IMG/VR virus record: IMGVR_UViG_3300035490_000346
Coordinates: 1-62,625 of that record
DNA length: 62,625 bases
Strand: one strand, 5' to 3'
From: a virus
Below are positions 5,943 to 60,273 of the stretch, piece after piece. The notes under the pieces are model-generated. The model made no database searches and was not told the origin of the DNA. It worked only from the letters and a program-made list of their open reading frames with translations. Positions within the stretch are counted from its first letter, which is position 1. Every line of letters begins with the position of its first letter. Both the position numbers and the translations under genes were made by a program.

Positions 5943-5977
5943 AATCCCGCCGCAGGCCCGTGATTCCAGTGTATACT
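5943..5977 (+). promoter_or_regulatory. Early-type promoter: AATCCCGCC-N20-TATACT
   Basis: AATCCCGCC at 5943-5951 is followed after exactly 20 bases by TATACT at 5972-5977, preceded by GTG. The same two boxes at the same spacing recur at eight other sites in the window. It precedes the gene at 6053, with a leader of about 70 bases. Confidence 0.65.
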
Positions 5978-6052
5978 TAGTGTGAAGGGGGCAGGCAAGG
6001 CGCTCCCGAGAGATTATGGCCTCCGCACTGACGAGGCCAGAGGAGATTACAA

Positions 6053-6409
6053 ATGAATAGGAACGGGCTTGAGGAGCGGGAGACTGCCCGCCTGGTGTGG
6101 GACTATTTCCGGCTGATGCTGCCTACGACCAAGGACAGGCTGCTGGAGAGGTACAAGGAGGCAAGTGATCGCCTTCGCCCCGGTGCCTCCAGGAAGGTAC
6201 GGCTGGTGACCAACGGCGTGGAGGAGGTCATCGAGGTCAAGTTCGGCTCTAACACCAAGGGCGAGTTCCTGACGATGAAGGACTTCTACCACGAGCTTAT
6301 GAAGGCCAGCCCTGTATGGGCGTTCATCGGCGCTGACCTGCCGAGCAATCCTCCACGGCAGAAGCGCCCCGGCAGGGGAAGGTTCAACCCGAACCGCAGG
6401 CCCCGCTAG
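6053..6409 (+). CDS. Unknown 118-residue protein
   Basis: AGGAG seven bases before ATG 6053 supports the start. The N-terminal half is helical and charged. The middle has a valine-rich strand pattern (KVRLV, VEEVIEVKFG). The last 20 residues are Arg/Pro-rich, likely a disordered nucleic-acid-binding tail. It is the first gene after promoter 5943. No family recognised. Confidence 0.6.
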   Translation: MNRNGLEERETARLVWDYFRLMLPTTKDRLLERYKEASDRLRPGASRKVRLVTNGVEEVIEVKFGSNTKGEFLTMKDFYHELMKASPVWAFIGADLPSNPPRQKRPGRGRFNPNRRPR

Positions 6410-6413
6410 CTCT

Positions 6414-6486
6414 CTGGCAGGGCATGCGGAGTAGCTGACTGTATCCAGGCATGGCCAGCGAAATCTGAGCCATGCCCTGCCAGGAG
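6414..6486 (+). promoter_or_regulatory. Leader RNA with two mutually exclusive hairpins
   Basis: CTGGCAGGGCATG (6414-6426) is perfectly complementary to CATGCCCTGCCAG (6471-6483), a 13-bp stem that ends at the ribosome site AGGAG (6482-6486) of the gene at 6494. The same 3' arm can instead pair with GGCATGGC (6448-6455) through GCCATGCC (6469-6476), an 8-bp hairpin with a 13-base loop. The two structures cannot coexist, the layout of a translational switch or attenuator. The signal, if any, is unknown. Confidence 0.5.
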
Positions 6487-6493
6487 ACTTACT

Positions 6494-7501
6494 ATGAGAG
6501 AGGCACGCTTCGATACGGTCCTGCCCACCGACTGGACAGGCAGCAAGGCGCTAGGGGTGTTCCTCGGCCAGGACTTCTGCGCCGAGCACGAGTGGGGCAT
6601 AAGGGGCGTCCAGGAGCACTTCGGCATCTCCAAGAACACCCGTGCCCTGGGCGTCAACAGGCGCAGGATACGGCAGGTCCCCAAGAGCCTCATGTGGGTC
6701 AGGCGAGGCATCCGGGAGGGAATCCTTCTTCCCGAGACATTCGAGCTACACTACGAGGGCCCGGTCAAGGCCGTGTCCTTCTACTGGCGCACCCTCTACC
6801 TCCCCACGGCCAAGGGGCTCAAGGCGGCGTGGGACGAGGGCTCCTTCATCGTGACCTCCAACCGCAAGAAGGAAGTCAGGCTCCTGCGCCAGGTCTATGA
6901 CGCTATCAGGAGGAAGGACGCCGCCGTGGGCATCTTCAGCCCGCACGGGCTTAACCCCTTCGGCGGGCAGGGCCTAGGGATTGCCATCGTCAGCCGCATG
7001 GACAAGGATACGCTCAAGGGCTGGAAGGATGCCGACCGGGAGCAGCAGTTCCTCCAGAAGGCCAAGAGGGACAGCGGCATCGTAGACATACTCCGCAAGG
7101 CAGGCAAGAGGTTCTTCGACGTCTCCCCCAGGCTTGAGAAGGACGGGACCATCGTCTACTGGCTCAACCCCTGGGACGAGGGCCATGCTAAGGCGGGGTG
7201 GTACTCCCTCCAGGACCTCAAGGACTGGGCAGAGGGCAAGGGGAAGGTGGTACAGCCCCCTCCCCCTCCCCCTGAGCCTGAGCCCGAGCAGCCGGAGGAA
7301 TGGGGAGACGAAACTAGCACTCCCGGTGCCAGCATCCCTGGCTCGGAGCTACCGCCCATCCCGCCCCCCGAGCCCGAGCCCGAGCTGCCGGAGGAGCAGG
7401 GGGACGAGACCAGCACTCCCGGCGCTGGTATCCCTGGCTCGGAGCCCTTCCAGGAGATGCTAGGGGAGGAGCCGAAGTGCGACGACGGGGTTCAGCAATG
7501 A
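6494..7501 (+). CDS. Unknown 335-residue protein with a Pro/Glu repeat tail
   Basis: The first ~245 residues look globular, mixed alpha/beta and rich in Arg and Lys. From about residue 254 the protein becomes a low-complexity tail: six prolines, then two near-identical copies of a ~32-residue unit containing PEPEPE, PEE, GDETSTPG and IPGSE. Such tails are usually disordered spacers or binding arms. The gene lies under the switch-like leader at 6414-6486. It overlaps the next gene by four bases. Function not recognised. Confidence 0.65.
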   Translation: MREARFDTVLPTDWTGSKALGVFLGQDFCAEHEWGIRGVQEHFGISKNTRALGVNRRRIRQVPKSLMWVRRGIREGILLPETFELHYEGPVKAVSFYWRTLYLPTAKGLKAAWDEGSFIVTSNRKKEVRLLRQVYDAIRRKDAAVGIFSPHGLNPFGGQGLGIAIVSRMDKDTLKGWKDADREQQFLQKAKRDSGIVDILRKAGKRFFDVSPRLEKDGTIVYWLNPWDEGHAKAGWYSLQDLKDWAEGKGKVVQPPPPPPEPEPEQPEEWGDETSTPGASIPGSELPPIPPPEPEPELPEEQGDETSTPGAGIPGSEPFQEMLGEEPKCDDGVQQ

Positions 7502-7701
7502 GGGACAAGAAGCGGTTCATGCACGAGCTGGCCGTGTTCCTGGTGGCCGAGCAGGCCTCTGACAGCATCGGGCTCCAGCTAGGTAGGCCCTTTGCCAAGC
7601 GCTGGGCCGCCCTCCGCAGTGCTACCCCCCTCTTCGGCTACCCGACCGTGGAGGAGGCAGAGAAGGTGCTGTCGGGATGGCTGCTCGGGGAGGGCAAATG
7701 A
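7498..7701 (+). CDS. Unknown 67-residue helical protein
   Basis: ATGA overlap with the preceding gene sets the start at 7498. The sequence is helical, with a hydrophobic face in its first half and a Trp-containing C-terminus. It overlaps the next gene by four bases. No family recognised. Confidence 0.55.
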   Translation: MRDKKRFMHELAVFLVAEQASDSIGLQLGRPFAKRWAALRSATPLFGYPTVEEAEKVLSGWLLGEGK

Positions 7702-9005: not shown

Positions 9006-9587
9006 ATGAATAGCGAGAGAGGCGCAATATCCGTACTGGCAGTCACGCTGCTGGCCATCCTGGGGGTCGTGCTGTTCCTCGGGGCATCGCTGGTCATCGG
9101 CTACATCAGCTTCGGCAACGAGGCCAACCGCTTCGAGAACAGCATCACCGCCGCCTACACCAACAACCAGAACGTCTACGACAACGGGTGGAAGACCGTG
9201 GTCGAGAAGGCGCAGGTCCCCGCCGAGTATACCAAGCAGCTAAAGGACCTCTATACCAACGCCATCACCGGGCGCTACGGCCCCACGGGGTCACGGGCCC
9301 TCTTCCAGTTCATCAAGGAGCAGAACCCGACACTGGACCCTGGGATGTTCATACAGATTCAGCAGTCCGTGGAGGTCTTCCACAACCAGTTCGCCCAGGC
9401 CCAGACGGAGCTGGTGTCCCGGAAGCAGGAGTACCAGAACCTCTACACCGGCACCATGCACGGGCGCTTCTACAACACGATAGCGCACTACCCGCACATC
9501 GACATGAGCAAGTACGATATCGTGACGTCGGAGAAGACGCAGACGGACTTCGGCACCAAGAAGGCCGCCCCGCTGAAGGTGTTCTGA
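9006..9587 (+). CDS. LemA-like membrane-anchored helical protein
   Basis: A hydrophobic anchor at residues ~8-32 is followed by a long helical domain starting with a YxNNQNxYDNGWxxVVEKAQVP pattern. This recalls the LemA family (N-terminal anchor, then helices with a conserved Tyr/Asn/Val series). AAGGAG seven bases before ATG 9006 supports the start. LemA-type proteins sit at the inner membrane. Their exact function is unclear, but they frequently pair with TPM-domain proteins, matching the upstream gene. Confidence 0.6.
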   Translation: MNSERGAISVLAVTLLAILGVVLFLGASLVIGYISFGNEANRFENSITAAYTNNQNVYDNGWKTVVEKAQVPAEYTKQLKDLYTNAITGRYGPTGSRALFQFIKEQNPTLDPGMFIQIQQSVEVFHNQFAQAQTELVSRKQEYQNLYTGTMHGRFYNTIAHYPHIDMSKYDIVTSEKTQTDFGTKKAAPLKVF

Positions 9588-9895
9588 TGACGTACCTCGT
9601 TGACCATTACTCGGACGGGCAGCCGCACCTCATGGAGGTGTCGGAGGCTATCTGGCGTGTCCTCAGGGCGATGGCAGAGAGGTACCCGTCGGACATCATC
9701 CTGTCCGACGGCCTTGCGAAGAGAGGGGGGGAGGAGCCGCTGGAACGGCTTGTCCTCCTCCGCAAGGGGTGCCCAGGGGAGGTAGTAATAGAGCTTATGA
9801 AGGGGCGCACGGAAACGTGCAATTCCCTGGAGCTGCACAAAGAGGTGCAACCGCTCCACCAGGACGATAGCCTGTTCATAGAGAGGTGGGGATAG
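9587..9895 (+). CDS. Unknown 102-residue protein
   Basis: TGATG overlap with the LemA-like gene fixes the start at 9587. The sequence is mixed, with a helical stretch early (EAIWRVLRAMAERYP) and a charged C-terminus. It overlaps the next gene at GTG 9895. No family recognised. Confidence 0.5.
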   Translation: MTYLVDHYSDGQPHLMEVSEAIWRVLRAMAERYPSDIILSDGLAKRGGEEPLERLVLLRKGCPGEVVIELMKGRTETCNSLELHKEVQPLHQDDSLFIERWG

Positions 9896-10173
9896 TGGGA
9901 TACGGGATAAACAAGACCAACGAGGAGGGCACGGAGGCCACGCTCCACGGTTATGTCCACTGCGTGGACGGCATGCCGGTATTCAGGGTCAGCTTCGGGG
10001 AGCGGGACTCCGACTGGATGGACGTCCCGTCCGGGTGGCTCACCGAGAACCTGGACATACCGGAGTTCGTCGGCGGCATCACGACGGTGGATGTCAGCCT
10101 TACCGTAAGGCTAGGGAAGGCCAGGACCAGATACGGGGGGGAGGCAAAGACAGATGAGGAACATCAGGCTTAA
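9895..10173 (+). CDS. Unknown 92-residue beta-rich protein, GTG start
   Basis: GTG 9895 shares its first base with the preceding TAG and has GAGGTGGGG just upstream. An in-frame GTG at 9886 is the alternative. The protein alternates short strands, with conserved-looking Gly, Tyr and His. It overlaps the following start at 10154. Unknown role. Confidence 0.45.
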   Translation: MGYGINKTNEEGTEATLHGYVHCVDGMPVFRVSFGERDSDWMDVPSGWLTENLDIPEFVGGITTVDVSLTVRLGKARTRYGGEAKTDEEHQA

Positions 10174-10372
10174 CACCTGCTCCGGAGGCACGGGCACCTG
10201 CTCCAGCAGGGCGGTGCTGACCGCCGAGACAGAGGACGGGCGCACCATCGGCAGGGAGCTGGACTTCAGCAGCGATGCCCTCACCTCGGTGAAGTACGGG
10301 GCGTACCTCGTCATCCAAGGGCTGGCAGAGATACAGATGGAGGAGAGGACCGAGCGGCATGAACAAGCCTAG
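10154..10372 (+). CDS. Unknown 72-residue protein
   Basis: It starts inside the preceding gene and ends 14 bases inside the NMN adenylyltransferase gene. Two cysteines and a beta-rich stretch are visible in the first half. Heavy overlap on both sides is typical of this block and implies coupled translation. No family recognised. Confidence 0.5.
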   Translation: MRNIRLNTCSGGTGTCSSRAVLTAETEDGRTIGRELDFSSDALTSVKYGAYLVIQGLAEIQMEERTERHEQA

Positions 10373-11354
10373 CTACGGCGTCATAGTCGGCAGGTTCCAG
10401 TGCCACGAGCTGCACGACGGGCACATGGAGCTGTTCCGCATCGTGCGCGGCCGCCACAGCCGGGTAATCGTGTTCCTGGGCTGCAACAGGGTTGGCCCCA
10501 CGAGGCACGACCCCCTGGACTTCGAGGTGCGCAAGCGCATGATTCAGGCGAAGTTCCCCGAGTTCACCGTCCTGCCCCTCCGGGACAAGAAGACCGACGA
10601 GGAGTGGAGCAGGGAGCTGGACTCCCGCATCTCCGATGCCGTGGGGGAGGTCCCCGCCGAGGTCGTGCTCTACGGGAGCCGGGACTCGTTCGCCCCCTAC
10701 TACCACGGCACGCACCCTGTCAGGGAGCTGGAGATATTCAACGTCCCCAAGGCGGTCAGCAGCACGGAGGTCCGTGCCACCCTGACCAACACCGTCATGG
10801 AGTCCGCCGACTTCCGGGCAGGGGCCATCTACGCCATGGGGCAGCTATGGCCCAGGGTCGTCACCGTGGTGGATATCGCCATCGTCCATGATTGCAGGCT
10901 GGGCCTAGGCTCCGATGCCCCAGGGGCCGGGCTGATGCTCCTAGTCGGGAAGAAGCCGGACGACATCCTCTGGCGGTTCCCTGGCGGGCATGCGCTCTTC
11001 ACCACCGACTCCTTCGAGGCGGACGCCAAGAAGGAGGCCTTCGAGGAGACGGGGCTCGATGTCGATAGCCTGGAGTACATCGGCTCCCGCAGGGTGGATA
11101 GCTGGCGCTGGAAGGGCGAGCCCTCCGAGGGCTACAAGACCCTGTTCTTCGTCGCCGAGAGCATGGCGATGGGCGGGCACGGGTCGGACGACCTTTCCGA
11201 GACCAAGTGGTTCCGTATCGACGACCTGGCCGAGGAGGACTTCGAGAAGGAGCACAGGCCCCTCTTCAGGATGCTGCTCGGCCATGTCACCAGCAAGTGG
11301 GGATACAGCCTGAGGAAGAAGGAGGAGGAGCATGCCACAGCCGTTGAAGGTTAA
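10359..11354 (+). CDS. natV: Bifunctional NMN adenylyltransferase / Nudix hydrolase
   Basis: The N-terminal domain begins with VGRFQ and carries the nucleotidyltransferase HxGH motif (HDGH, residues 19-22) and the SSTEVR signature near 133-138, so it should join NMN to ATP to make NAD+. The C-terminal domain has a Nudix box from about residue 207 (PGGH...EAFEETGL), with Lys in place of the usual Arg. The same two-domain order is known in phage KVP40 NatV and in bacterial NadM-Nudix proteins. The neighbouring nicotinamide phosphoribosyltransferase supplies the substrate, and the two genes overlap by 23 bases. Nudix substrate (ADP-ribose is common) is inferred. Confidence 0.92.
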   Translation: MNKPSYGVIVGRFQCHELHDGHMELFRIVRGRHSRVIVFLGCNRVGPTRHDPLDFEVRKRMIQAKFPEFTVLPLRDKKTDEEWSRELDSRISDAVGEVPAEVVLYGSRDSFAPYYHGTHPVRELEIFNVPKAVSSTEVRATLTNTVMESADFRAGAIYAMGQLWPRVVTVVDIAIVHDCRLGLGSDAPGAGLMLLVGKKPDDILWRFPGGHALFTTDSFEADAKKEAFEETGLDVDSLEYIGSRRVDSWRWKGEPSEGYKTLFFVAESMAMGGHGSDDLSETKWFRIDDLAEEDFEKEHRPLFRMLLGHVTSKWGYSLRKKEEEHATAVEG

Positions 11355-12765
11355 CCCCCTGGACAGGGACGACAGCTACAAGGACTCCCACTGGTTCCAG
11401 CTCCCCAAGGACACGGAGCACGTGTACAGCTACCTTGCGTCCCGTGGGGGGTTCTGGAAGCACACCATGTTCTTCGGCCTCCAGTACTACCTGGCGGCCT
11501 ACCTGGAGGGGAAGGTGTTCGGCCCGGACGACGTCACCGAGGCGGCCGACCATGCCAAGGCGCACTTCGGCCAGGACGGCATCTTCAACCGTAACGGGTG
11601 GATGCGCCTCTATGCCAAGCACGGCGGCAGCCTGCCGCTGCGCGTCCGGGCTGTCCCGGAGGGCACCGTCGTCCCCGTCAAGAACGTCCTGATGACCATC
11701 GAGAACACGGACCCCGAGTTCCCATGGCTCACCAACTGGGCAGAGACGCTGCTGCTCAAGGTCTGGTACCCTATCACCGTGGCTACCCTATCCTTCGAGA
11801 TAAGGCAGGCCATCGGGGAGGACCTTGCCCGTACCGGCACCCCCTCCCTGCTGGACTTCAAGCTGCACGACTTCGGCTACAGGGGGGTCTCGTCCGAGGA
11901 GACGGCAGCGATAGGCGGTGCCGCCCACCTGGTCAACTTCCTGGGCACCGACACCAAGGCCGCCCTGGCGATGCTGAGGCAGTACTACGACAAGCCGATG
12001 GCGGGGTTCAGCATCCCTGCCATGGAGCACAGCACCGTCACTACCTGGGGCGAGGACAACGAGGGGGATGCCTACGAGAACATGCTCAATGCCGTCCCCA
12101 AGGGGCTGGTGGCCTGCGTGATAGACAGCTACGATATCTACCGGGCTGTCCGGGAGATATTCGGCGACCGGCTGCGGGAGCACGTGCTGCGCCGTGACGG
12201 CGTGGTGGTGCTGCGCCCGGACAGCGGCGAGCCTACCGTCATCCTTGAGGACGTGTTCAACATGGTGGCGGAGAAGTTCGGGTTCGAGACGCACCCCAAG
12301 GGCTGGAAGCTGCTGCCCGCGCAGATTAGGTGCATCCAGGGCGACGGCGTCAACTACCAGAACATCCTCCGTATCAACTCGCACCTCACCCGTGCGGGCT
12401 GGAGCATGGACAACTGGGGCTACGGGATGGGCGGGGCGCTCCTCCAGCAGCTAAACCGCGACACCCAGCGCTTTGCCCTCAAGTGCTCTGCCGTCCGCAG
12501 GAGCGGCTTCTGGGAGGATGTTTACAAGACTACCAAGGCGGACCCGAGCAAGGCCAGCATGGCGGGGCGGTTCGACCTGCTGCGCTACCCTGACGGGGAG
12601 CTGGAGACGGTCGAGTCGGATAGCTGGGACCCGCGCAGCCAGCCCGGCTGCACCAACGCCCTGGAGACGGTGTTCGAGGACGGGGCCGTAAAGCGCCACC
12701 AGACCCTTGACCAAGTAAGGGAGATTGCACGCACCTATGACCGGTTCAAGGAGGAGGAGCAGTGA
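11332..12765 (+). CDS. nadV: Nicotinamide phosphoribosyltransferase (NAMPT family)
   Basis: This 477-residue protein has the length and signatures of NAMPT/NadV. They include GGFWKHTMFFGLQYYL near residue 40, the catalytic-His region FSIPAMEHS around 225-233, RPDSGEP near 294 for phosphoribosyl binding, and GDGVNY followed by a YGMGG loop. It transfers phosphoribose from PRPP to nicotinamide, giving NMN. With the preceding adenylyltransferase it forms a complete two-step NAD+ salvage route, the pathway described in KVP40 and in phages that resist NAD+-depleting defences. It overlaps the upstream gene by 23 bases and the downstream gene at GTGA. Confidence 0.93.
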   Translation: MPQPLKVNPLDRDDSYKDSHWFQLPKDTEHVYSYLASRGGFWKHTMFFGLQYYLAAYLEGKVFGPDDVTEAADHAKAHFGQDGIFNRNGWMRLYAKHGGSLPLRVRAVPEGTVVPVKNVLMTIENTDPEFPWLTNWAETLLLKVWYPITVATLSFEIRQAIGEDLARTGTPSLLDFKLHDFGYRGVSSEETAAIGGAAHLVNFLGTDTKAALAMLRQYYDKPMAGFSIPAMEHSTVTTWGEDNEGDAYENMLNAVPKGLVACVIDSYDIYRAVREIFGDRLREHVLRRDGVVVLRPDSGEPTVILEDVFNMVAEKFGFETHPKGWKLLPAQIRCIQGDGVNYQNILRINSHLTRAGWSMDNWGYGMGGALLQQLNRDTQRFALKCSAVRRSGFWEDVYKTTKADPSKASMAGRFDLLRYPDGELETVESDSWDPRSQPGCTNALETVFEDGAVKRHQTLDQVREIARTYDRFKEEEQ

Positions 12766-20064: not shown

Positions 20065-20099
20065 AATCCCGCCAGAGGCGGTGTATCCTGGTGTATACT
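20065..20099 (+). promoter_or_regulatory. Early-type promoter of the Ku island
   Basis: AATCCCGCC (20065-20073), 20 bases, TATACT (20094-20099). Within the spacer TGTATCCT stands 10 bases before TGTATACT, a direct repeat on one face of the helix. GGTGGAGGG follows at once as ribosome site for ATG 20116. Confidence 0.7.
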
Positions 20100-20115: not shown

Positions 20116-20331
20116 ATGGACTTCAAAAATAACATGGTCAAGGGCATGGAAGACAACCCGATGGGCATCCCCGAGTACGAGTATACGGTAAGGGTCAGGG
20201 TCCGGGCCATCCGCCAGTCCGACGCCGACTACCTGGCGGAGGACATCGCAGAGGGCCTCGCCCGCAGCACCAAGGGCCTCAGCACGGCCTCTGTCTGCTC
20301 CGCGCAGGTCACCGAGGCCAGGAAGCTGTAA
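20116..20331 (+). CDS. Unknown 71-residue protein, first gene of the Ku island
   Basis: ATG 20116 has GGTGGAGGG upstream; an in-frame GTG at 20104 is less likely. The protein has a strand-rich middle (YTVRVRVRAI) followed by a helix, the beta-alpha-beta pattern of a small ferredoxin-like domain. It has its own promoter at 20065 and is followed by a second promoter before Ku. No family recognised. Confidence 0.6.
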   Translation: MDFKNNMVKGMEDNPMGIPEYEYTVRVRVRAIRQSDADYLAEDIAEGLARSTKGLSTASVCSAQVTEARKL

Positions 20332-20332: not shown

Positions 20333-20367
20333 AATCCTGCCCATATCCGTGTATCCTGATGTATACT
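20333..20367 (+). promoter_or_regulatory. Early-type promoter of the Ku gene
   Basis: AATCCTGCC (20333-20341), 20 bases, TATACT (20362-20367), with the TGTATCCT/TGTATACT direct repeat. GCGGAGGG follows, then ATG 20390. It begins two bases after the previous stop codon. Confidence 0.7.
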
Positions 20368-20389: not shown

Positions 20390-21394
20390 ATGGCAAAAGC
20401 AGCAAGGACCGTAGCGGATATCGCCAGCCAGCTCAGCGCTGTGCTCAAACCGCAGCCCGCCAATGCCCCCCAGGCCGCCCCCAAAGAGAAGGTCTATGTC
20501 AGCAAGGCAACATGGACCGGCACTATCTCGGTCGCCCCTGGCCTTGCCTTTAAGGCGAAGCTCTACAAGGCCACCAACGACCCCACGGAAGGCTTCAAGT
20601 CCAACATGGTACACCAGTGCTCCGCCGCCGCCAATGACGGGACCGTGGAGTACTCGCAGCTAAAGCAGGGCAGCATGAAGTGCTCCGTGTGCGGCGTCGA
20701 TGTCCCCAAGGAGAGCGTCCAGAAGGGCATCCCCAATGGCGATGGCACCTTCACCATCATCAGCGATGACGAGAAGAAGTCCTGCATGGTCCGCTCCGAG
20801 GGCGAGATGCAGGTCCTCCGCCTTGTCCCCTCCCGCGATGTTGACCCTATCTACTTCGACGGCGCGTCCGAGTTCCTGGGGCCCGAGAAGGGTGCCGAGA
20901 AGTTCTATGTCGGGCTGCGCAAGATGCTCGGCAAGGGCCTTGTAGCCCTCGCCGTGAACGTCCAGCGCGGGCAGGAGTACATGCTGGTCCTCCGCCCCTA
21001 CGGCAAGGACGGCATCATCGCCAACTACATCCGCCGCGAGCACGAGGTCCGTGCGTGCGACAAGTTCCCCATGGTCGCCCTGAGCCAGCAGGAAGAGGGG
21101 CTCTTCTCGCAGCTAGCCGATGCCCTGACGGGCAGGTTCGACACCGAGGAGTTCCCTGACACCTACGCCAGCAACCTGCGCGGGCTTATCGTTGCCAAGC
21201 AGTCCGGCACCGCTGCCCCCGTGGTCGAGAAGCAGGCCCCCGCCGCCGTGGCGGTTGACCTGATGGCGGCCCTCCAGGCATCCATCAACGCCGCCAAGGC
21301 GAAGCAGGGCGGCCAGCCTGTCGCCGTTGCCGAGCAGCTTATCGCCGAGAAGGCCGCCGAGGCCAATACCGCTGCCAAGTTCGCTATCAACTAG
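20390..21394 (+). CDS. ku: Ku-like DNA end-binding protein
   Basis: Residues ~42-205 follow the bacterial Ku core: WTGTISVAPGLAFKAKLYKAT at the start, a CSVCG zinc-knuckle-like remnant near 99-102, a VQKG turn, a SDDEKK segment, VDPIYFDGASEFLGP around 151-165, the K-x-Y helix and LRPYGKDG. Ku rings thread onto DNA ends and recruit ligase in non-homologous end joining. The 334-residue length is near bacterial Ku (~270-300) with an N-terminal extension of ~40 and an Ala-rich C-terminal tail. The next gene is an ATP-dependent ligase, the normal partner. Phage Ku proteins are known (Mu Gam, mycobacteriophage Omega and Corndog). Confidence 0.88.
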   Translation: MAKAARTVADIASQLSAVLKPQPANAPQAAPKEKVYVSKATWTGTISVAPGLAFKAKLYKATNDPTEGFKSNMVHQCSAAANDGTVEYSQLKQGSMKCSVCGVDVPKESVQKGIPNGDGTFTIISDDEKKSCMVRSEGEMQVLRLVPSRDVDPIYFDGASEFLGPEKGAEKFYVGLRKMLGKGLVALAVNVQRGQEYMLVLRPYGKDGIIANYIRREHEVRACDKFPMVALSQQEEGLFSQLADALTGRFDTEEFPDTYASNLRGLIVAKQSGTAAPVVEKQAPAAVAVDLMAALQASINAAKAKQGGQPVAVAEQLIAEKAAEANTAAKFAIN

Positions 21395-21402
21395 GAGCCG
21401 TG

Positions 21403-22179
21403 ATGAAGGCAGAGCTACTGACTCCGATAGGTATACCGAGGCTGATGGCCCTTGCCAGGGACGACAACTACGGCTTCCAGCAGAAGCACGACGGGCACCG
21501 CACGCAGGTCGAGAAGCACGGCAGCACCATAAGGACCTACAACCGGGAGGGGGAGCCCACGCAGCCCCTCCCTCCCTCCCTGCAAGGCACCCTCCTGGCA
21601 AGCGGCATCCCGGACTTCTATATCGACACGGAGCGGGTGGGCAAGCGGCTCATCGTCCTGGACGTCGTCAGCCTCCTGGGCTCCAGCCTGAGGGTCCTGC
21701 CCTACAGCAGCCGCGAGCCTATCGCCCACCAGGCGTTCGACCATGCGGGGCCGGGGGTAGAGGTCATCGGCACCGTCCTGGGGACGGGGGCCAAGCTGGC
21801 CTTCCTGGAATGGCTCATCCGCACCAGGGCAGAGGGCGTGGTCGTGCGCGACATGAGGAAGCCCTACAGGGAAGGGGATGCCTGCCAGCACTTCAAGCTC
21901 AAGTTCGTCAAGGAGTGCGATGCCGTGGTCATAGGCCCCTCCCCGGACGGCAAGGACAGCGTCCGCATAGGGCTGTACCGGGAGGACGGTACCCTGCACG
22001 AGATATCCGGGGTAAGCCTCAGGAACAAGTTCCAGGCCCAGCCCGGCGAGGTCGTGACGGTGCGCTACCTGTGCGTCACCAGGGACCTGCACATACGGGA
22101 GCCCCATCTTGTCCGCAAGCGGGACGATAAGAGGGCCTCCTGCTGCTGGCTGAGCCAGCTTACCGAGGAGCAGATATGA
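21403..22179 (+). CDS. ATP-dependent DNA ligase (minimal, NHEJ-type partner of Ku)
   Basis: The 258-residue protein has motif I KHDGHR with the adenylated Lys at residue 28, motif III FYIDTERVG near 74, motif IV AEGVVVR near 145 and motif V FKLKF near 165, then a short OB-fold region. This is the minimal nucleotidyltransferase/OB ligase form. It starts eight bases after Ku, at ATG 21403 behind AGGAG. The pairing implies end joining, possibly genome circularisation on entry or repair of defence-made breaks. IDTE instead of the usual DGE in motif III is noteworthy. Confidence 0.88.
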   Translation: MKAELLTPIGIPRLMALARDDNYGFQQKHDGHRTQVEKHGSTIRTYNREGEPTQPLPPSLQGTLLASGIPDFYIDTERVGKRLIVLDVVSLLGSSLRVLPYSSREPIAHQAFDHAGPGVEVIGTVLGTGAKLAFLEWLIRTRAEGVVVRDMRKPYREGDACQHFKLKFVKECDAVVIGPSPDGKDSVRIGLYREDGTLHEISGVSLRNKFQAQPGEVVTVRYLCVTRDLHIREPHLVRKRDDKRASCCWLSQLTEEQI

Positions 22180-22947: not shown

Positions 22948-22982
22948 AATCCCGCCCGGTTTTGTGTATCCTGGTGTATACT
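22948..22982 (+). promoter_or_regulatory. Early-type promoter before gene 23004
   Basis: AATCCCGCC (22948-22956), 20 bases, TATACT (22977-22982), with the TGTATCCT/TGTATACT repeat. GGTGGAGGG follows as ribosome site. Confidence 0.7.
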
Positions 22983-23003: not shown

Positions 23004-23225
23004 ATGGCATGGCAACTACCAAACAGGAAAACCAAGAAAAGGACCCCTGTAACCAGGGACGAGAGATTCGGCAACTCCGTCGCCGAGCTTATGGATACCC
23101 TGGAGACGGTCAGGAAGAATAGCCAGAGCCTTCCTAGTGGGCTCCTGGACAAGGTCCACGGGAGGGTCGAGGACCTGACTATCCTTATCCAGAGGGCCAT
23201 CCTTATCCAGAAGGCCCTTGACTAG
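23004..23225 (+). CDS. Unknown 73-residue helical protein
   Basis: ATG 23004 lies behind GGTGGAGGG. The N-terminus is basic (NRKTKKR), then a long amphipathic helix with heptad-like Leu/Ile spacing, suggesting a coiled coil that may bind nucleic acid. It is the last gene of the Ku island and overlaps the convergent phosphatase gene by four bases. Confidence 0.55.
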   Translation: MAWQLPNRKTKKRTPVTRDERFGNSVAELMDTLETVRKNSQSLPSGLLDKVHGRVEDLTILIQRAILIQKALD

Positions 23226-25560: not shown

Positions 25561-25613
25561 GGCGGCCTTGCGGCAGAGGCAGCCCTGCCCCGAGGGCAGG
25601 GGGAGGAAGCAGG

Positions 25614-26012
25614 ATGGCAGTCTATACGTTCAGGTGCAGCAAGTGCAGCATAGTCCTTGAGGAGCTTATGCCGATGAAGACGGCTACCTTCGAGGACCGG
25701 CCCTGCCCGGCCAGGTGCGGGGGCACGTGCTCCTACCAGCTACGGGGGGCACCCTCCCTGGGCACGGAGGGCATGTCCAACGCGGCCTTCGACGTGAAGG
25801 TCGGGGCGGATGCCGAGAGGCGCTGGGAGAGGATTAAGGCCCGGCAGGGCAAGAGGAACAGGGTGCGCCAGGAGGCGGGGGCAGGGGCCCTGTCCGCTAC
25901 CACCCACGAGGACTGGCGGGCCGTCCCTGGGGCAAGGCTCCGGGGGCTGGAGATACCCCCTAAGGCCCAGGACACGATAGTCATACCGGCAGGGGCGGGG
26001 CAGGAAAACTGA
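25614..26012 (+). CDS. FmdB-like zinc-ribbon protein
   Basis: It starts MAVYTFRCSKC, the N-terminal pattern of FmdB-type regulators, with a second pair CPARCGG near residue 32; together they make a four-cysteine zinc ribbon. The remainder is basic and probably disordered. ATG 25614 has GGGGGAGGAAGC upstream. It heads the main late block 63 bases before the sheath gene. Similar small proteins occur near phage structural genes; function unknown. Confidence 0.6.
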   Translation: MAVYTFRCSKCSIVLEELMPMKTATFEDRPCPARCGGTCSYQLRGAPSLGTEGMSNAAFDVKVGADAERRWERIKARQGKRNRVRQEAGAGALSATTHEDWRAVPGARLRGLEIPPKAQDTIVIPAGAGQEN

Positions 26013-26075
26013 CTTCCGCCCCCCTATTAGAGAGAGAAGATTCAGGCGGCACCCTGCCGCCAAGGAGAACTGGCC

Positions 26076-29000
26076 ATGGCACTTTTCGGTTCCTACGCAC
26101 CCCCAGGGGTCTACACCTCGGTCGTCATCAGCGGAGCAGGCATACCGCTCTTCGGGAACGCCCGCATCCCTGTCATAATCGGGGAGGGCCAGGAGTTCTT
26201 CGAGCAGGACAACGTGGAGATTTTCCGTGGCTCCAGCGCGATAGCCCAGCCCTTGGTGGTGAACGAGAACATCTCGGACCAGATTACCGAGATTACCAAC
26301 GAGGCCCATACCACCTACTTCCCGGTGGTAGTGGGGGGCAATGCCGGTGGCACGGGGCCGGGGACATCCGCCATTACCGATAACCCGGCGTACCTCCAGG
26401 TGACTGACAACGGCATCCCGCTCACCGTCATCTCCCTCAAGGGGCAGACCGGTGCCTTCTACACGCAGGAGCTTATGGTGCCCGGCGACAACGTCGAGAT
26501 TACCTACTACTTCCTGCGCACCGACACTCCTATCACCAACGAGAACGAGTCTGACCAGGTCCCGAGCTATGCCGCATGGCAGGTCTACGATACCAATGGC
26601 AACTATGTGCCTGTCAGCGTCTCTCTCCCCGGCTCGACCGGCAGCAATGTCACGGTAAACGTCTTTGACGACACCCTGTCCTCCCCTGCGGGCACCGGCG
26701 TGCTCGACACGCAGGCCATCGGCGGGGCGGGCACGGATGCCATCACCTTTGACATCGCCAAGGTAGGGGGCGGGAAGCGCACCCTCGCGGACTTCTACGC
26801 CCTCCTCCAGATGAACATCCCGACCCTGGACGCGGGAACCCTGGTCGCCCTGGCCCCGGTCCTGGCAGGCTCCCCCCCGGTCCTGAGCGACATGTACCCG
26901 GCCCTCTACCAGCTCCAGGGCGGGTTCGGCCCCAGCACCAACACGGTGTTCAAGGTCGAGCATGTCCCCATCGTGGACGGCAGCGGCGGCGGCGTGGTCA
27001 CGACCGACCCGACCAAGGTCACGGCAACGGTCAATGGCAGCACCACCGTCAACCCGGTCGGGGCAGTGGACGGCCTGCATGGCCTCGTGACCCTGACCCA
27101 CCCCGTGGAGTCAGGCAGCACGCTTACCCTGAGCTACTACACCAACACCTACCAGAACACCTACGACATCATCCCGGCGAACAACGTGTCGTCCGTCATA
27201 CAGGTAGGGCTGGGCCCCAACCGGACGGACTTCATCGAGGATACTGACTATACCCTCGGCACGGACGGCAACGGGAACGACACCATCAACTGGGGCGCAA
27301 GCTCCGCGACAACGGTCGGCACCTCCACCACCGGCTATACCCCCTTCGGGCCGACCCAGATACTCACGACCGTAGTGGACGAGAGGGTGTTCCTGCGCCT
27401 CTGCACGGGGGCCAGCAGCGGCTCCAACCTAGTCTTCACGCTCCCGGACAACCCGACTGACGGCACCGGCCAGGGCAACGGCCCTGGGACCGTCACCGAT
27501 GACCCGACCAAGATACAGGTCTATGTCGGCGTCAACCCCGTGGAGGCCCTGGAGAACTACCTGCCCGGCGAGTCCGAGCGGGTCATAGCCCTCTCCGGCA
27601 GCACGAGGCACTTCACCCTCTACAAGCCCCCCCTACTGGGCCAGAACGTCTACGCCTCCTACTGGCGCAGCACCCTGAACGACCACAGCTACACGGTCAA
27701 GGTCTCCAACCCCGGCATCTCGGGGCAGGGCACCTACACCATCAACGACGAGGTCGGGAGGGTGCTCCCGGTCGTATCGTTCAATGCCGGGGCAAGCTCC
27801 GTCCACCAGAGCGGCGAGTTCGCCCAGCAGGGCATCATCTGGCCCTACAATTTCCCCGACCTGTACGACTCCCCAGGCGAGGTGGACGAGACTGTCACCC
27901 TGACCTTCCAGGACGACGGGTATACCCGTGACGTGGACCCAGGGGCGCAGTCCTACCTCACGACCCAGGGCATCCTGTTCTTCTGCACCACGCCCGGAGT
28001 CGGCGGCAATGCCATAAGCGTGGCGTTCAACACCACCGGGACCTATGGAATCACCAAGGTCGGCAACGCCATCACCTTCAACGGCGTCACCACCACCAAC
28101 CAGGTCATCACCCTGGCCGGTTCGGGCATCACCACCACCTTCGGCACCGTCCTGGCCCAGCTTGTCACCGTGGGCACCATCAGCACGGCGGCGGCCGTCC
28201 ACCTGGACGGCGGCGTTGACCCGGCCGACCCCCAGCCATACTCCCTCCGCTACCTCGTCACCTCCTCCAGCCCGGACGGGTCCAGCGGCGAGGGCTACCT
28301 CGACCAGACCTACATCGACGAGAACACAGGGCTCAAGTTCACCATCGTCAGCCCGCAGGATGCCGTCCCGGACTACGGGTGGCAGAGCGTCCCGGTCCCC
28401 TACACCTTCGAGCCGGGCGACTACCTGGTGTTCCAGGTCAGCAGCGAGCAGGTCCGCTACTCGGGGTCTACCTACTTCCCGTACAGCGATGCCCAGCCCA
28501 ACAACCTCGTCTGCATCGCCGGGCTCAACACGACGGTGGTCACCACCTTCGGTGCCAACACCGGCGACACCGCCATCATCCAGACCTTCAACAACTCCGG
28601 CAACCAGCCGGCCATCGGCGAGTACTACTACGTCTCCTTCCAGACCGAGAAGACCCCCGCCGACATGGCCATCACGCTGTACGACAGCGCCAGCAAGGCC
28701 TACTCGGCCTACGGGCAGCCCACTACCGTCAACCGCCTCAGCCTGGGCGTCCAGCTCATGACCGAGAACGGGGCGCAGCAGTTCGGCTGCATCCAGGTCC
28801 CGAAGCAGCCGGGGCTAGGCACTGCCACGGACGCCAGCTTCATAGCGGCCATCCAGACACTCGCCACGGCGCTCCCAGGCACCACCCAGAAGGCCAATGT
28901 CATCGTCCCGCTGAGCACCAGCACCTCGGTCCACCAGTTCCTCAGCCGCTTCCTCATCACCCAGGCGAACGTGAGGAACAAGGGGGAGGCCATCGGGTTC

Positions 29001-29669: not shown

Positions 29670-29727
29670 GGGAAGGACATGGGGGGAGGGGGCAGCACCC
29701 TTCCCCCCATAGCGACAAGGCGGCAGA

Positions 29728-30225: not shown

Positions 30226-30235
30226 AGGAGCCAAG

Positions 30236-31732: not shown

Positions 31733-31785
31733 GCAACCGCGAGCAAAAGGACTTCCGGGGCTTTGATTAGACAGGAGAGGGAAAC

Positions 31786-32527: not shown

Positions 32528-32797
32528 ATGCCAGGGAAGGTAACCCGCGAGCAGGCCTGGGTGAACGTGTCCCCGTCCCGTAAGTGCTGGAGGCTGGTCT
32601 ACAACACCAGGAGCAGGAGGGTCTTCATCCTCTTCGAGAAGGAGGGCTTGACCAAGACGTTCCAGGCCATGTTCTGCTCCGACCCCACCGACGGCGGCCC
32701 CGGTTCCGTCACCAGCAGGGAGGGCAGGGAGCAGTGCCTAGGGCGTGCCAAGGCCCTGGGGCTGGAGTTCCGCATCGCCCATAATCCTGCCGCCTGA
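32528..32797 (+). CDS. Unknown 89-residue basic protein
   Basis: GCGGAGG precedes ATG 32528. The protein has VSPSRKCWRLVYNTRSRRVFILFEKEG, a basic strand-rich core, and two Cys. Its last codons overlap the promoter box at 32783. No family recognised. Confidence 0.5.
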   Translation: MPGKVTREQAWVNVSPSRKCWRLVYNTRSRRVFILFEKEGLTKTFQAMFCSDPTDGGPGSVTSREGREQCLGRAKALGLEFRIAHNPAA

Positions 32798-32817
32798 TGT
32801 GTATCCTGATGTATACT
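32783..32817 (+). promoter_or_regulatory. Early-type promoter inside the late block
   Basis: AATCCTGCC (32783-32791), 20 bases, TATACT (32812-32817), with the TGTATCCT/TGTATACT repeat. It overlaps the end of the upstream gene and precedes ATG 32840. It shows that genes at 32.8-33.9 kb are controlled apart from the virion genes around them. Confidence 0.7.
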
Positions 32818-33677: not shown

Positions 33678-33691
33678 GAGGCACAAAAAAG

Positions 33692-53804: not shown

Positions 53805-53975
53805 TTACCTCTCCTGGTCTTGGTTTAGCCTTGCCGCCCTGCTCTCCGATATCCCTGCCCTGCCCTGCGGGTGCTCCCCGAGGGGCCTCCCGCAGTGGGC
53901 GCATCCTGGCCCCGTGTAGGTGGGGTTCTCGGTATAGGGGTGGTTCTCCGGCCTGAGGAACTCTTTGCTGTCCAT
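53805..53975 (-). CDS. 56-residue zinc-knuckle peptide, possibly leaderless
   Basis: ATG 53975 lies seven bases after the TATACT of promoter 53983-54018, so transcription would begin at or next to the start codon. No ribosome site fits between. The peptide has a GCAHCGRPLGEH segment (a short zinc knuckle) and a charged C-terminus. Stop at 53805-53807. Confidence 0.55.
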   Translation of the reverse strand: MDSKEFLRPENHPYTENPTYTGPGCAHCGRPLGEHPQGRAGISESRAARLNQDQER

Positions 53976-53982: not shown

Positions 53983-54018
53983 AGTATACACCGTCCTACA
54001 CGGTGCTAGGCAGGGATT
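53983..54018 (-). promoter_or_regulatory. Early-type promoter (minus strand) of the 53.9-52.6 kb genes
   Basis: Read on the minus strand: AATCCCTGCC (54018-54009), 20 bases, TATACT (53988-53983), with GTGTAGGAC ten bases before GTGTATACT. It overlaps the 3' end of the HNH-like gene. Confidence 0.7.
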
Positions 54019-54962: not shown

Positions 54963-55199
54963 TCAGGCAGGGGTCCTGCTGCGCCTCACCACCGTGACCT
55001 TAAGGGGGCCGTCCACCGATACCCCCTTCTTGCTGCGTGCCGCCTTGCCTGCCTGGAATGCCAGGGCCTTCATGTTCACCTCTACCCTGACGGTAAAGTT
55101 CTCCTTGCCGTCCGGCACGGAGATATTGCCCAGCCCGTCCTTGCACTTCTCTGCCCGGAAGACGTCACGCACGTACTCAAGGCTCTCGAATACGACCAT
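54963..55199 (-). CDS. Unknown 78-residue beta-rich protein
   Basis: ATG 55199 lies inside the 3' end of the upstream gene (GGAGGGGCGCG upstream). The protein alternates strands and charged turns (FTVRVEVNMKALAF) and ends with a basic tail (KVTVVRRSRTPA). Possibly nucleic-acid binding. No family recognised. Confidence 0.55.
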   Translation of the reverse strand: MVVFESLEYVRDVFRAEKCKDGLGNISVPDGKENFTVRVEVNMKALAFQAGKAARSKKGVSVDGPLKVTVVRRSRTPA

Positions 55200-55386
55200 C
55201 GCGCCCCTCCTGGAATATATTGTGGGCCTCGTTGAAGGAGATGACCTGGAGCAGCCCGTCGTCCCACCGGACCTCGAACGCCGCCCAGTAGACCTTGGCC
55301 ACCCTTCCTGCGGACAGGGCGCTGTCGCCGATCTGGTACACGACCTTGTCCCCTGCCTTCAAGCTCCTGGCCTCATTCTCGTCCAT
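55177..55386 (-). CDS. Small SH3-like barrel protein, 69 aa, possibly leaderless
   Basis: ATG 55386 lies six bases after the TATACT of promoter 55393-55428; GTG 55401 upstream is the alternative. The strand pattern (AGDKVVYQIGDS...GRVAKVYWAAFEVRWDDG) resembles a small Tudor/SH3-like barrel of the kind that binds proteins or nucleic acids. The absence of a leader again suggests leaderless translation. Confidence 0.55.
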   Translation of the reverse strand: MDENEARSLKAGDKVVYQIGDSALSAGRVAKVYWAAFEVRWDDGLLQVISFNEAHNIFQEGRDGRIREP

Positions 55387-55392: not shown

Positions 55393-55428
55393 AGTATACA
55401 CCGTTCTACACGGGCTCGGGCAGGGATT
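55393..55428 (-). promoter_or_regulatory. Early-type promoter (minus strand)
   Basis: Minus strand: AATCCCTGCC (55428-55419), 20 bases, TATACT (55398-55393), with GTGTAGAAC before GTGTATACT. It overlaps the 3' end of the gene 55406-55603. Confidence 0.7.
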
Positions 55429-57421: not shown

Positions 57422-57674
57422 GCCTCATCTCCCACAGGCCCTTCGCCTGTACTGCCCTGATGGTGCGCCTGAGCGCCTCTGCCTCGCTGCGCCCCCTGCG
57501 CCGGACCCTTACCCCGTGGTAGGGGGCCTTGGGGTCGGGGTGCGGGGTCAGCTCTGCCTCCGCCGCCCACCGCCAGCACCTTCCCCACCTGGGCAGGCGC
57601 TCCGTGCTCAGCACCAGGCGCTTGCCCCCCCGCCGCAGCCGGGCACGCTCCCCCATCGCGTGGCGGTACCTCAT
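57411..57674 (-). CDS. Unknown 87-residue Arg-rich protein
   Basis: ATG 57674 has GGAGAGGCT upstream and overlaps the previous stop. Arg-rich with Trp pairs (RWGRCWRWAAEAE), suggesting RNA or DNA contact. Unknown function. Confidence 0.5.
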   Translation of the reverse strand: MRYRHAMGERARLRRGGKRLVLSTERLPRWGRCWRWAAEAELTPHPDPKAPYHGVRVRRRGRSEAEALRRTIRAVQAKGLWEMRHGS

Positions 57675-57886
57675 AGCCTCTCCGTCATCTCGAACACGCA
57701 CAGGGCCTCATCGAGGCCGCAGTCGCAGTCCCAGGGAGGAGAGCGGAAGCCCCGCCTTTTGCTGCAAGTCGGCGTGTGCATCGCCCAGTCCTTGAGCTTC
57801 ACTGCCGCCGCCAGCCTGCTGCGCAGCTTCCCGTTCTCGTCCTCAGTGCTTCCCCTTGCCGACCTGCACGGCCCCGGCCTGCTCAT
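57671..57886 (-). CDS. Unknown 71-residue Cys-containing protein
   Basis: Two Cys pairs (C-x6-... and CDCG near residue 55) and basic helices. It overlaps the genes on both sides. Possibly zinc-binding. No family recognised. Confidence 0.45.
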   Translation of the reverse strand: MSRPGPCRSARGSTEDENGKLRSRLAAAVKLKDWAMHTPTCSKRRGFRSPPWDCDCGLDEALCVFEMTERL

Positions 57887-58298
57887 AGTGCGCTTCCTCC
57901 AGCCTCTCGGCGCATGCCCTTGCCGACCCTGCCGAGCGGAAGCAGACCACGCCCCCCTCGCTCCCTGTCGGCGTGTAGCGGCTCCCGTCCCTGTACAGCC
58001 AGTATACCCTCAGGCCGAGGATGGGGCCCTTGACCATCCACCTGCTCCTCCCCCTGGTGGATGTCCATCCCCACGGGTTCTTCCTCCAGCCGAGCCTCTT
58101 CCGGCGCTCCCGGTAGCGCCGGTAGCACTCGGGGCAGTCCAGCCCCGGCTCGAACCAGTCCCGCAGCCAGGGCATCCGCCCCGTCCCCTTGCCGCACAGG
58201 GTGCTGCTCTCCCCGGACGCCACCAGGTGCCCGGACCTGCCGCCCGTGCTGACCACGGCATAGTGAAGTAGGTCTACTTCTTCTCTTGCTTTAGCCAT
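57843..58298 (-). CDS. Zinc-ribbon protein, 151 aa
   Basis: A Cys near residue 35 and CPECYRRYRERRKR near 55 make a ribbon with a basic helix, followed by a Trp-rich strand region (WGWTSTRGRSRWMV). The C-terminus is helical and overlaps the next gene. The start ATG 58298 lies within the 3' end of the upstream small zinc gene. Function unknown. Confidence 0.5.
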   Translation of the reverse strand: MAKAREEVDLLHYAVVSTGGRSGHLVASGESSTLCGKGTGRMPWLRDWFEPGLDCPECYRRYRERRKRLGWRKNPWGWTSTRGRSRWMVKGPILGLRVYWLYRDGSRYTPTGSEGGVVCFRSAGSARACAERLEEAHYEQAGAVQVGKGKH

Positions 58299-58622: not shown

Positions 58623-58978
58623 TACAGGGCCTCCTGGTAGATGTCGATGAAGGTGGGCTGCGAGGGGGCATCGGTGCTGCCGCTCCAGCCCAGGGCAACG
58701 GCGAACGCCACGATCTTGGGGAAGGACGCGGCGTGCCGCCTGCCCTTCCTGTCCAGCCTGTGCATCAGCGCCAGCGGCAGGGCACGGTGGTCCTTGAACA
58801 CCATCCTGCCCGTCAGGGAGTTGTAGGCCACCCATCCTGGGAGCATCCAGAAGCACTGGTGGGCGCAGACGCCGCTTCCAGGGGCCATCTCACGGGTGCA
58901 GCCGCACACGGCGCAGCGGGGCTGCCCTACGCCCCTCTGCCCGACCGCCTTGACCGTGTAGCGCTGCGATTGGCTCAT
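58622..58978 (-). CDS. Zinc-finger protein, 118 aa
   Basis: ATG 58978 overlaps the previous stop. CAVCGCT and C-x-H-x-C about 11 residues on form a zinc site in residues ~22-42. The rest has an aromatic strand region and a helix (MHRLDRKGRRHAAS). Unknown function. Confidence 0.55.
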   Translation of the reverse strand: MSQSQRYTVKAVGQRGVGQPRCAVCGCTREMAPGSGVCAHQCFWMLPGWVAYNSLTGRMVFKDHRALPLALMHRLDRKGRRHAASFPKIVAFAVALGWSGSTDAPSQPTFIDIYQEAL

Positions 58979-59304
58979 AGCTCCTCGCTGCAAAGGCAGG
59001 GGGTCCCGCCGAAGAGCCGGAGGCCACATAACGGACGGATAGCCCTCTTGGCCTTCTTCCTCCGTGGCTTCCGCTTCTTGCCAGGGCATCCCAGGAGGTC
59101 CTCTTCCTTCCAGACCATCGTCTCGTGGAAGCATCCCAGGAAGTCGATCTTGACGACCTTTCCCTTCCTCTTGAAGCCAGCGAAGAGGGCGTTCTGGATG
59201 CGGACGAACTCCGACATGGTCATCATCCGCTCCCCACGGACGCTTACCAGGAGGTCCTGGGTATCCTTGCCTTCCAGCCTTACCCTGAATGCCCTTATTG
59301 CCAT
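58975..59304 (-). CDS. Unknown 109-residue basic protein
   Basis: CAGGGGGAGC precedes ATG 59304, which is the first gene after promoter 59325-59360. The first half is strand/helix mixed. The second is Lys/Arg-rich (GKKRKPRRKKAKR), a likely nucleic-acid-binding tail, with two C-terminal Cys pairs (CGL, CLC). Confidence 0.55.
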   Translation of the reverse strand: MAIRAFRVRLEGKDTQDLLVSVRGERMMTMSEFVRIQNALFAGFKRKGKVVKIDFLGCFHETMVWKEEDLLGCPGKKRKPRRKKAKRAIRPLCGLRLFGGTPCLCSEEL

Positions 59305-59324
59305 CGGTAGCTCCCCCTGGCACT

Positions 59325-59360
59325 ACTATACACCAGGATACATCCTTCCCTGTCAGGATT
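59325..59360 (-). promoter_or_regulatory. Early-type promoter (minus strand), 21-base spacer
   Basis: Minus strand: AATCCTGAC (59360-59352), 21 bases, TATAGT (59330-59325), with TGTATCCT ten bases before TGTATAGT. One position differs from consensus in each box. It drives the run of small genes from 59304 down. Confidence 0.6.
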
Positions 59361-59501
59361 CTGCCTCGCTTCCATATAGTTACCCTTCAAGCGCCACCCG
59401 CCCTTCCACGCTGATTCTGAAAGCCCCGGAAAAAATTGAATTAGTTGACACGAAACAACCCATACCTTTTACGCTGGCCAATCAGGGCTGCTGGCAGGAT
59501 T
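59361..59501. other. Intergenic region with an extra AATCCTGCC box
   Basis: No gene was found. The region is AT-rich in its middle (AAAAAATTGAATTAGTTGACA near 59432). On the minus strand AATCCTGCC occurs near 59494 without a TATACT at the expected distance. It may be an extra regulator-binding box for promoter 59325. Confidence 0.4.
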
Positions 59502-60047
59502 CTAGGGTAGGTCCAGGCTGGTAGGGGCAGGGTCCAGGCCCGTGTAGCCGTCATCGAGGGGCTGCGGGGTCCCGCCCAGGAAGGCGTCCACGGTGTCGTC
59601 CAGGGAGCCGTGGTGCCTGAAGCGCTCGGGGAATATCCCCTTGTACCTCTCCCGCTCCTCCTGGGTATAGCTCTTCCACCGCCTCATGAAGTCGTCGAAG
59701 TCCGTGGGGGGCGGCTCCTGCCTTATCCCCCACCACTCTTTCAGGTTGACCTGCCTCGGCAGGCCTTCCTCGGGCTTGGCGGGCTTGGGGTTCACCCTCT
59801 CAATCTCGGTCCCCACGGTCATGATGTACTGCCCTCTCCCGAAGATAGTGAACGACGTCCCGAACTCCAGGTACCAGCCCTGCGGGGACTCGGCCTCGTC
59901 AGGGACAGTCCTCGGGGTCCTCAGCCACCTGTCAAGCTCCTGCTGCATGGTGTACTGGAAACGGCGCTTGTTCATGCTCTTGTCAAGGTGCGCCCTTACG
60001 TCGGCAGGGTATTTCCTCAGGTCGGTTTCTAGGTTAATCACTGACAT
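59502..60047 (-). CDS. Unknown 181-residue protein
   Basis: Reads from ATG 60047, inside the preceding gene. A helical N-terminus (YPADVRAHLDKSMNKRRFQY) is followed by a strand-rich middle (GWYLEFGTSFTIFGRGQYIMTVG) and a helical acidic C-terminal part rich in Arg, Glu and Trp. No family recognised. Second gene of the promoter at 60239. Confidence 0.55.
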   Translation of the reverse strand: MSVINLETDLRKYPADVRAHLDKSMNKRRFQYTMQQELDRWLRTPRTVPDEAESPQGWYLEFGTSFTIFGRGQYIMTVGTEIERVNPKPAKPEEGLPRQVNLKEWWGIRQEPPPTDFDDFMRRWKSYTQEERERYKGIFPERFRHHGSLDDTVDAFLGGTPQPLDDGYTGLDPAPTSLDLP

Positions 60048-60219
60048 CGAAGGTGAGTTCTACTATGAACCTTGTGACGGCAAGACTCTCCGGGGAATCC
60101 TCGGCATAGCTGTCACGCAACTGGAAGAGGGCCTTTGCCTTCTCGGCCTTGGTGGTGTTCTTGTCAGAGGCAATCCTGGCTGCCTTCTTCTCGGCGGCGG
60201 TCTTGCTGATGTCTGCCAT
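60034..60219 (-). CDS. Unknown 61-residue helical protein
   Basis: GGTGGAGGGAGACACC precedes ATG 60219; an in-frame GTG at 60234 is less likely. Lys/Ala-rich helix, then strand-rich end (AVTRFIVELTFDVSD). It overlaps the next gene. First gene after promoter 60239. Confidence 0.55.
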   Translation of the reverse strand: MADISKTAAEKKAARIASDKNTTKAEKAKALFQLRDSYAEDSPESLAVTRFIVELTFDVSD

Positions 60220-60238
60220 GGTGTCTCCCTCCACCTAT

Positions 60239-60273
60239 ATAATACATCAAAAAGCTGCTTTCCCGGAGGGATT
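60239..60273 (-). promoter_or_regulatory. Early-type promoter variant (minus strand)
   Basis: Minus strand: AATCCCTCC (60273-60265), 20 bases, TATTAT (60244-60239), preceded by GATG. It is the most divergent member, with a T-rich spacer. It drives the gene at 60219. Confidence 0.5.

Follow-up and report, generated by a model that had tools for sequence, protein, structure and literature searches.

A predicted promoter family with an unusual upstream box dispersed in a jumbo-type phage and its relatives

Middle promoters of phage T4 combine a MotA box, (W)(W)(W)TGCTTtA, centred at -30 and positioned 12+/-1 bp from the -10 element, with a sigma-70 -10, and are used through sigma appropriation by AsiA and MotA (PMC2988021). 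The stretch of viral DNA analysed here (the window, 62.6 kb, 64% GC) is the whole of IMG/VR virus record IMGVR_UViG_3300035490_000346 and carries nine sites that resemble these promoters: a box specific to the phage stands in for the -35, the -10 is retained as the more stringent element, the sites are many and dispersed, and no phage RNA polymerase was detected (PMC2988021). They differ from T4 middle promoters in the sequence of the box (GAATCCC) and in its location, about -42..-36, with 20-24 bp separating it from the -10; because of this distance and sequence the family is not filed with them. The nine sites are predicted to be promoters of one conserved family whose upstream box is unusual. 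They probably represent one delayed-early or middle promoter class, served by the host RNA polymerase together with a phage-encoded sigma-like factor or activator.

Other described systems share some of these features. Jumbo phages with sigma systems of the T4 gp55/gp33 type (group 2 of PMC7824862) also have no RNA polymerase of their own and encode sigma-like or minimal helix-turn-helix (HTH) proteins, but the candidate factors discussed below are weakly similar to known sigma models and their link to the promoters is putative. Promoters of the phiKZ/AR9 type are likewise phage-specific motifs found genome-wide in jumbo phages (PMC5312081, PMC7598289); they are read by phage multisubunit RNA polymerases, while no RNA polymerase beta subunit was found in the clade of the window. 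The start-associated sequences (SAS) and ESAS of cluster K mycobacteriophages are dispersed conserved sequences right before start codons, common to orthologous genes (PMC3203893). SAS is short, and the 17-bp inverted repeats that distinguish ESAS have no clear function; the sites of the window differ in that their two boxes are arranged as in a promoter and some of them are leaderless. The literature searched gave no account of promoters in these phages, and the paper on Tunturi_5, their cultured relative, does not mention promoters.

The nine sites had been proposed in a sequence-only reading of the window and were all found at the coordinates and on the strands given there (Table 1). The two-box pattern is absent from 100 windows generated with an order-3 Markov model; such windows are expected to contain 0.63 copies of TGTATACT alone (eight observed) and 0.02 copies of TGTA-N6-TGTATA (seven observed). 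A weight matrix trained on relatives only, the window being left out of training, assigns its top nine window scores to exactly the nine sites (28.0-33.9, against 14.4 for the next position and a Markov maximum of 21.2). The same nine come first when training is restricted to the more distant relatives G015 and G008 (26.4-32.7; next 15.3). A motif search retrieved many matches with at most three mismatches in 41 viral records, compared to one in total for the reversed pattern. Exact two-box matches present in unrelated IMG/VR contigs (e.g. G033, G034, G038, G041) lack the TGTA copy and were taken as likely chance occurrences.

Alignment of 41 sites from four genomes, anchored on the -10, reveals the anatomy of the predicted promoters. 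Three peaks of information are seen, over -44..-36 (A/T-A-G-AATCCY), over -16..-6 (GGTGTATACTA) and over +1..+7 (GGAGGGA, a Shine-Dalgarno sequence), with low values at -35..-30; the upstream peak at -43..-36 reads AGAATCCC. The hexamer, TATACT and variants, has the TANNNT form of a sigma-70 -10, and no TTGACA is found 17+/-1 bp from it, in agreement with the initial proposal that the upstream box is not a sigma-70 -35 and that the spacing exceeds 17. The two boxes are separated by 20 bases in six of the nine sites and by 21 in the other three (54018, 55428 and 59360), rather than in a single one as first counted, which places the start of AATCC at -41 or -42. Seven promoters orthologous between the window and the 127-kb relative G002 are 91% identical at -43..-36, 93% at -25..-18, 90% at -17..-6 and 90% at +1..+6. 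Identity is lower outside these blocks, at 57% for the spacer, 40% for upstream and 46% for downstream sequence. The -25..-18 block corresponds to a TGTA copy and is constrained in the lineage of the window and G002.

Among ten genomes the start codon lies either 11-12 nt from the first base of the -10 (20 sites) or 20 nt and more away, never at 13-19. Window sites 7 and 6, with distances of 12 and 13, stand outside this count because their intergenic gap is short. A transcription start 12-13 nt from the first base of the hexamer would produce such a distribution, the gene being then either leaderless or provided with room for a Shine-Dalgarno sequence. The start-codon distances are thus indirect evidence for the predicted transcription start.

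Table 1. Predicted promoter sites of the window, promoter logos of relatives and copies of one candidate factor.
Feature	Genome	Position	Strand	Sequence elements	Genes and orthologs
Site 1	Window	5943..5977	+	AATCCCGCC box 5943-5951; -10 TATACT 5972-5977	Start codon 6053; ortholog G002 54117
Site 2	Window	20065..20099	+	GGAGGG starts at inferred +1	Precedes 71-residue gene 20116-20331
Site 3	Window	20333..20367	+		Precedes Ku-like gene 20390-21394
Site 4	Window	22948..22982	+		Precedes 73-residue gene 23004-23225
Site 5	Window	32783..32817	+		Precedes gene 32840-33910; overlaps 3' end of gene 32528-32797
Site 6	Window	53983..54018	-	TATACT-7 nt-ATG	Precedes gene 53805-53975; near-leaderless
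Site 7	Window	55393..55428	-	TATACT-6 nt-ATG	Precedes gene 55177-55386; leaderless
Site 8	Window	59325..59360	-	AATCCTGAC ... TGTATAGT	Precedes gene 58975-59304
Site 9	Window	60239..60273	-	AATCCCTCC ... TGTATTAT	Precedes gene 60034-60219
-10-only site	Window	5579..5586	+	TGTATACT, without AATCC box	Before gene 5604-5942; same state kept in G002 53726
Weaker site	Window	378..385	+	TGTATAGT, then GGAGG	ATG at 402; G002 ortholog 44370 has upstream AATCC
Logo	G002			TAGAATCCC + GGTGTATACT
Logo	G015			AAGAATCCC + CGATGTATA.T
Logo	G008			AATTCCCC + CGGTGTATACT
Logo	G009			AAAAWTCC + CGTGGTATACT
Logo	G021/G025/G026			AATTCCTANC + GGTATAAT
Logo	G028			AAAANCCTANC + CTGGTAGAAT
Logo	Tunturi_5			RATAWTC + TGGGTATTA[GC] (short form RATAWTC + GGGTATTA)
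Further lettering, short form	Relatives			AAAWTCC + GTGGTATACT
237-residue HTH protein	G015	57463-58176
237-residue HTH protein	Tunturi_5	301753-302487
237-residue HTH protein	G002	121972-122685

The same layout with drifted letters is common to G002, G008, G015, G009, G021, G025, G026, G028 and Tunturi_5, where the upstream box occupies about -43..-33. De novo k-mer enrichment upstream of genes, carried out genome by genome, detects the promoter family in most of the larger relatives. Maintenance of the layout with different lettering suggests that the phage makes its own transcription factor. The TGTA repeat, whose copies were said to recur 10 bases apart in most sites, is indeed present in seven of the nine. 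Its proposed role as the binding site of the factor does not extend to the relatives: the repeat is kept only in the lineage of the window and G002 and in part of G015, and is absent in G008, G009, G021, G025, G026, G028 and Tunturi_5. In nearly all of these, by contrast, both the -10 and the box at about -42..-36 are found. By this comparison the repeat is a lineage-specific element and not a universal binding site.

Genes behind the sites of the window are mostly of early type, as was proposed for all of them, the exception being the gene of site 5 (32783), which belongs to the structural cluster. Its G015 homologue (31323-31784) is found among small non-structural genes and has its own promoter copy. 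The sites had also been described as overlapping the ends of upstream genes. This applies to sites 5 (HNPAA-stop in the box), 6 and 7, while sites 1, 3 and 4 (5943, 20333 and 22948) begin directly after a stop codon. At sites 6 and 7 the box encodes ESLP at the carboxyl terminus of the upstream gene product, as previously noticed; the G002 ortholog of site 6, read by eye, seems to encode a different peptide, and it is therefore the DNA that is conserved, not the peptide. The two sites with a -10 only, at 5579 and 378 (+), were missed in the initial survey and both have orthologous G002 sites. Directly after the -10-like site 378, an open reading frame running from ATG 402 to 872 is in frame with the predicted gene 651-872, whose true start may be this ATG. 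The small gene of site 9 has a homologue at another position of G002 (62100-62252), also with its own site, and promoter and gene may move together.

Tunturi_5 sites precede genes for replication and nucleotide metabolism (processivity factor, single-stranded DNA-binding protein, helicases, thymidylate synthase, dCMP deaminase and ribonucleotide reductase), and no such site is found in front of its terminase, portal, sheath and capsid genes. This distribution suggests a middle-type class, with timing deduced from gene content. Tunturi_5 has in addition another family of promoter-like sites, AAAGTCATCTTTG - about 18 bp - TTTGTAGGTTGA, with 28 upstream sites, several of them leaderless (TAGGTT-6 nt-ATG) and mostly ahead of small hypothetical genes. 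Structural genes (25599-31785 in the window and the structural regions of relatives) are devoid of the two-box promoter and often have GACTTC...(C)TATTAG/TTAGTAGG-like elements. These GACTTC...TTAG-type elements are a possible late-promoter class, showing some enrichment but many antisense matches.

The window codes for a major head protein (phrog_2522, 2.9e-40), a tail sheath and a head maturation protease, and no tRNA genes were found in its 62.6 kb. It is collinear with 44-110 kb of the 127-kb G002 and is therefore a fragment. Its closest cultured relative by capsid (68% identity) is Tunturiibacter phage Tunturi_5, a 308.7 kb myovirus infecting an acidobacterium (Acidobacteriota); Bacillus phage G is more remote. 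The window phage is probably a jumbo-type myophage. Its host would probably be a member of the Acidobacteriota, as its closest cultured relative is an acidobacterial phage; a search with the window major capsid protein in genome contigs for host identity gave no relatives.

The beta subunit of RNA polymerase (PF00562) was detected in none of 21 records, including relatives of 455-463 kb, while the positive control gave 14/14; a phage multisubunit enzyme with beta/beta' of the phiKZ/AR9 type is thus not found in this set. T7-like RNA polymerase (PF00940) had no match in the 21 records, which are fragments, and control genomes likewise gave no signal. It is therefore likely that the host core enzyme reads the promoters. 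A Granulicella protein gave access to 27 bacterial genomes, the host of the window being itself a presumed one. In these the two-box pattern occurs at chance level (11 matches versus 8 for the reversed control) and is thus not a common host promoter type. A second pattern behaves similarly in these genomes (3 versus 5) and gives 30 versus 0 matches in three phages. Conservation across relatives, chance level in bacterial genomes and lack of a detected phage RNA polymerase make a phage-encoded factor probable.

According to the mechanism proposed, the host core RNA polymerase would start RNA 6-7 nt downstream of the TATACT -10, preceded by TG, yielding mRNAs that are leaderless or begin with the Shine-Dalgarno sequence GGAGG. 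The box GAATCCC would take the place of the -35, and a phage-encoded factor would direct the polymerase, either as a sigma-like protein reading both boxes or as an activator bound to the upstream box with sigma on the -10. A sigma spacer is normally shorter than the 20-24 bp seen here, which speaks for an activator. On the other side, the -10 itself varies between phages and has lost its -7 T in Tunturi_5, which speaks for a dedicated sigma. A factor of either type, encoded elsewhere in the phage, had been anticipated in the sequence-only reading. It probably exists and has candidates elsewhere in the genomes of relatives, while the window holds no sigma gene.

The first candidate is a gp3-like protein found in six genomes and annotated as sigma factor in Tunturi_5, with weak PHROG sigma matches (3e-5 and 5.5e-4). 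The second is a strongly conserved protein of about 237 amino acids with two HTH-like segments, present in eight genomes, whose copies in the clade share 53-81% identity with that of G002. Labelled 'exonuclease' in Tunturi_5, it matches Sigma70_r4_2 in G002 (2e-6, over the cut-off), weakly or not at all in relatives, and has also weak antitermination-Q matches; hhalign of this protein against phage extracytoplasmic function (ECF) sigma was negative. PDB profile searches gave no match. A clear sigma-70 (Pfam regions 2 and 4) is encoded only in G024 and G028, which were set aside as they have only isolated 3-mismatch matches to the window-type motif. Also set aside as a candidate was a clear sigma-70 region 4 domain (6e-18, at 10005-10166) within a 1035-residue protein of the G015 structural cluster (9078-12185), which is possibly a virion-borne sigma fragment; region 4 gave no match in its window homologue (34095-37724). 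In a more specific and rather doubtful version, the clade would have its own divergent sigma machinery co-evolving with both boxes, a private promoter code per phage with identical layout, in which a gp3-like part possibly reads the -10 and a separate HTH protein the box 20-24 bp upstream.

Several observations weigh against a promoter class read with a phage factor. The promoters are predicted from sequence, through boxes, fixed spacing, placement, conservation, per-phage drift and chance-level occurrence in bacterial genomes. The window is a fragment and encodes neither of the candidate factors. Pfam gave no sigma match for the gp3-like protein, whose hhalign comparison with phage ECF sigma was negative. 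Both candidates have predicted folds of low confidence (mean predicted local distance difference test about 60) for which Foldseek found no PDB match. G009 carries both candidates yet has a different box sequence, so that the link between candidates and promoters assumes co-evolution. The upstream box was found, with a regular expression, in 20 of 35 Tunturi_5 sites, and the five sites of the G023 set fit it poorly. Host sigma-70 can also accept TATACT, so that a -10 by itself does not require a phage factor.

In the strongest alternative, host sigma-A would recognise TGTATACT as an extended -10, the upstream box would serve as an UP-like or accessory element, and the sites would be immediate-early promoters that need no phage factor. 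Five of the six bases of TATACT agree with the sigma-70 -10, two sites have the -10 only, the A-rich box of G009 is like a proximal UP subsite, and Acidobacteria use leaderless genes (13.3% on average; PMC3160421). The TG at -14/-13 is however one base off the usual TGn, and AATCCC is GC-containing, sequence-specific and at a fixed distance. The chance-level occurrence in the 27 bacterial genomes, the variation of both boxes between related phages and the Tunturi_5 TATTA[GC], which lacks the -7 T, further make this explanation unlikely.

It is very improbable that the conserved elements, the TGTA repeat at -25..-11 in particular, are operators for a phage repressor acting over ordinary promoters in a stoperator-like manner. 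TGTA-N6-TGTA spans one helical turn at seven of nine sites and its block is among the best conserved between the window and G002, but the repeat is missing in most relatives where the two-box layout persists. In contrast to dispersed stoperators, each of the strong sites closely precedes a start codon and is oriented with transcription. Least probable of all, the sites would be start-associated elements comparable to cluster K SAS, either working at the RNA level in translation or mobile and copied with small genes: conservation reaching into the Shine-Dalgarno and the relocated G002 homologue with its own site would suit them, but leaderless members keep both boxes with nothing upstream of the ATG left to transcribe, and TANNNT at a fixed 6-7 nt before the predicted start is a promoter form.

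Behind site 3 the window encodes a phage end-joining pair (20390-22179). The Ku-like gene, with a Ku PF02735 match of 4.7e-17 and a single weak relative among 50,697 phage records, is followed by a ligase-like gene (21403-22179) carrying an ATP-dependent ligase domain. Neighbouring genes at 10359-12765 resemble a nicotinamide-nucleotide adenylyltransferase/NUDIX protein and a nicotinamide phosphoribosyltransferase, enzymes of nicotinamide adenine dinucleotide salvage; the pair, identified by reading and synteny, is also annotated in Tunturi_5 (gp217/gp218).

The sites form a catalogue of predicted promoters and predicted transcription starts that covers the cultured Tunturi_5 and a large group of jumbo phages from soil and peat, mostly uncultured. 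A box at -42 with 20-24 bp spacing would fit neither the sigma-70 rule nor the T4 middle-promoter rule. The drift of both boxes at constant spacing would provide a natural experiment in promoter-factor co-evolution.

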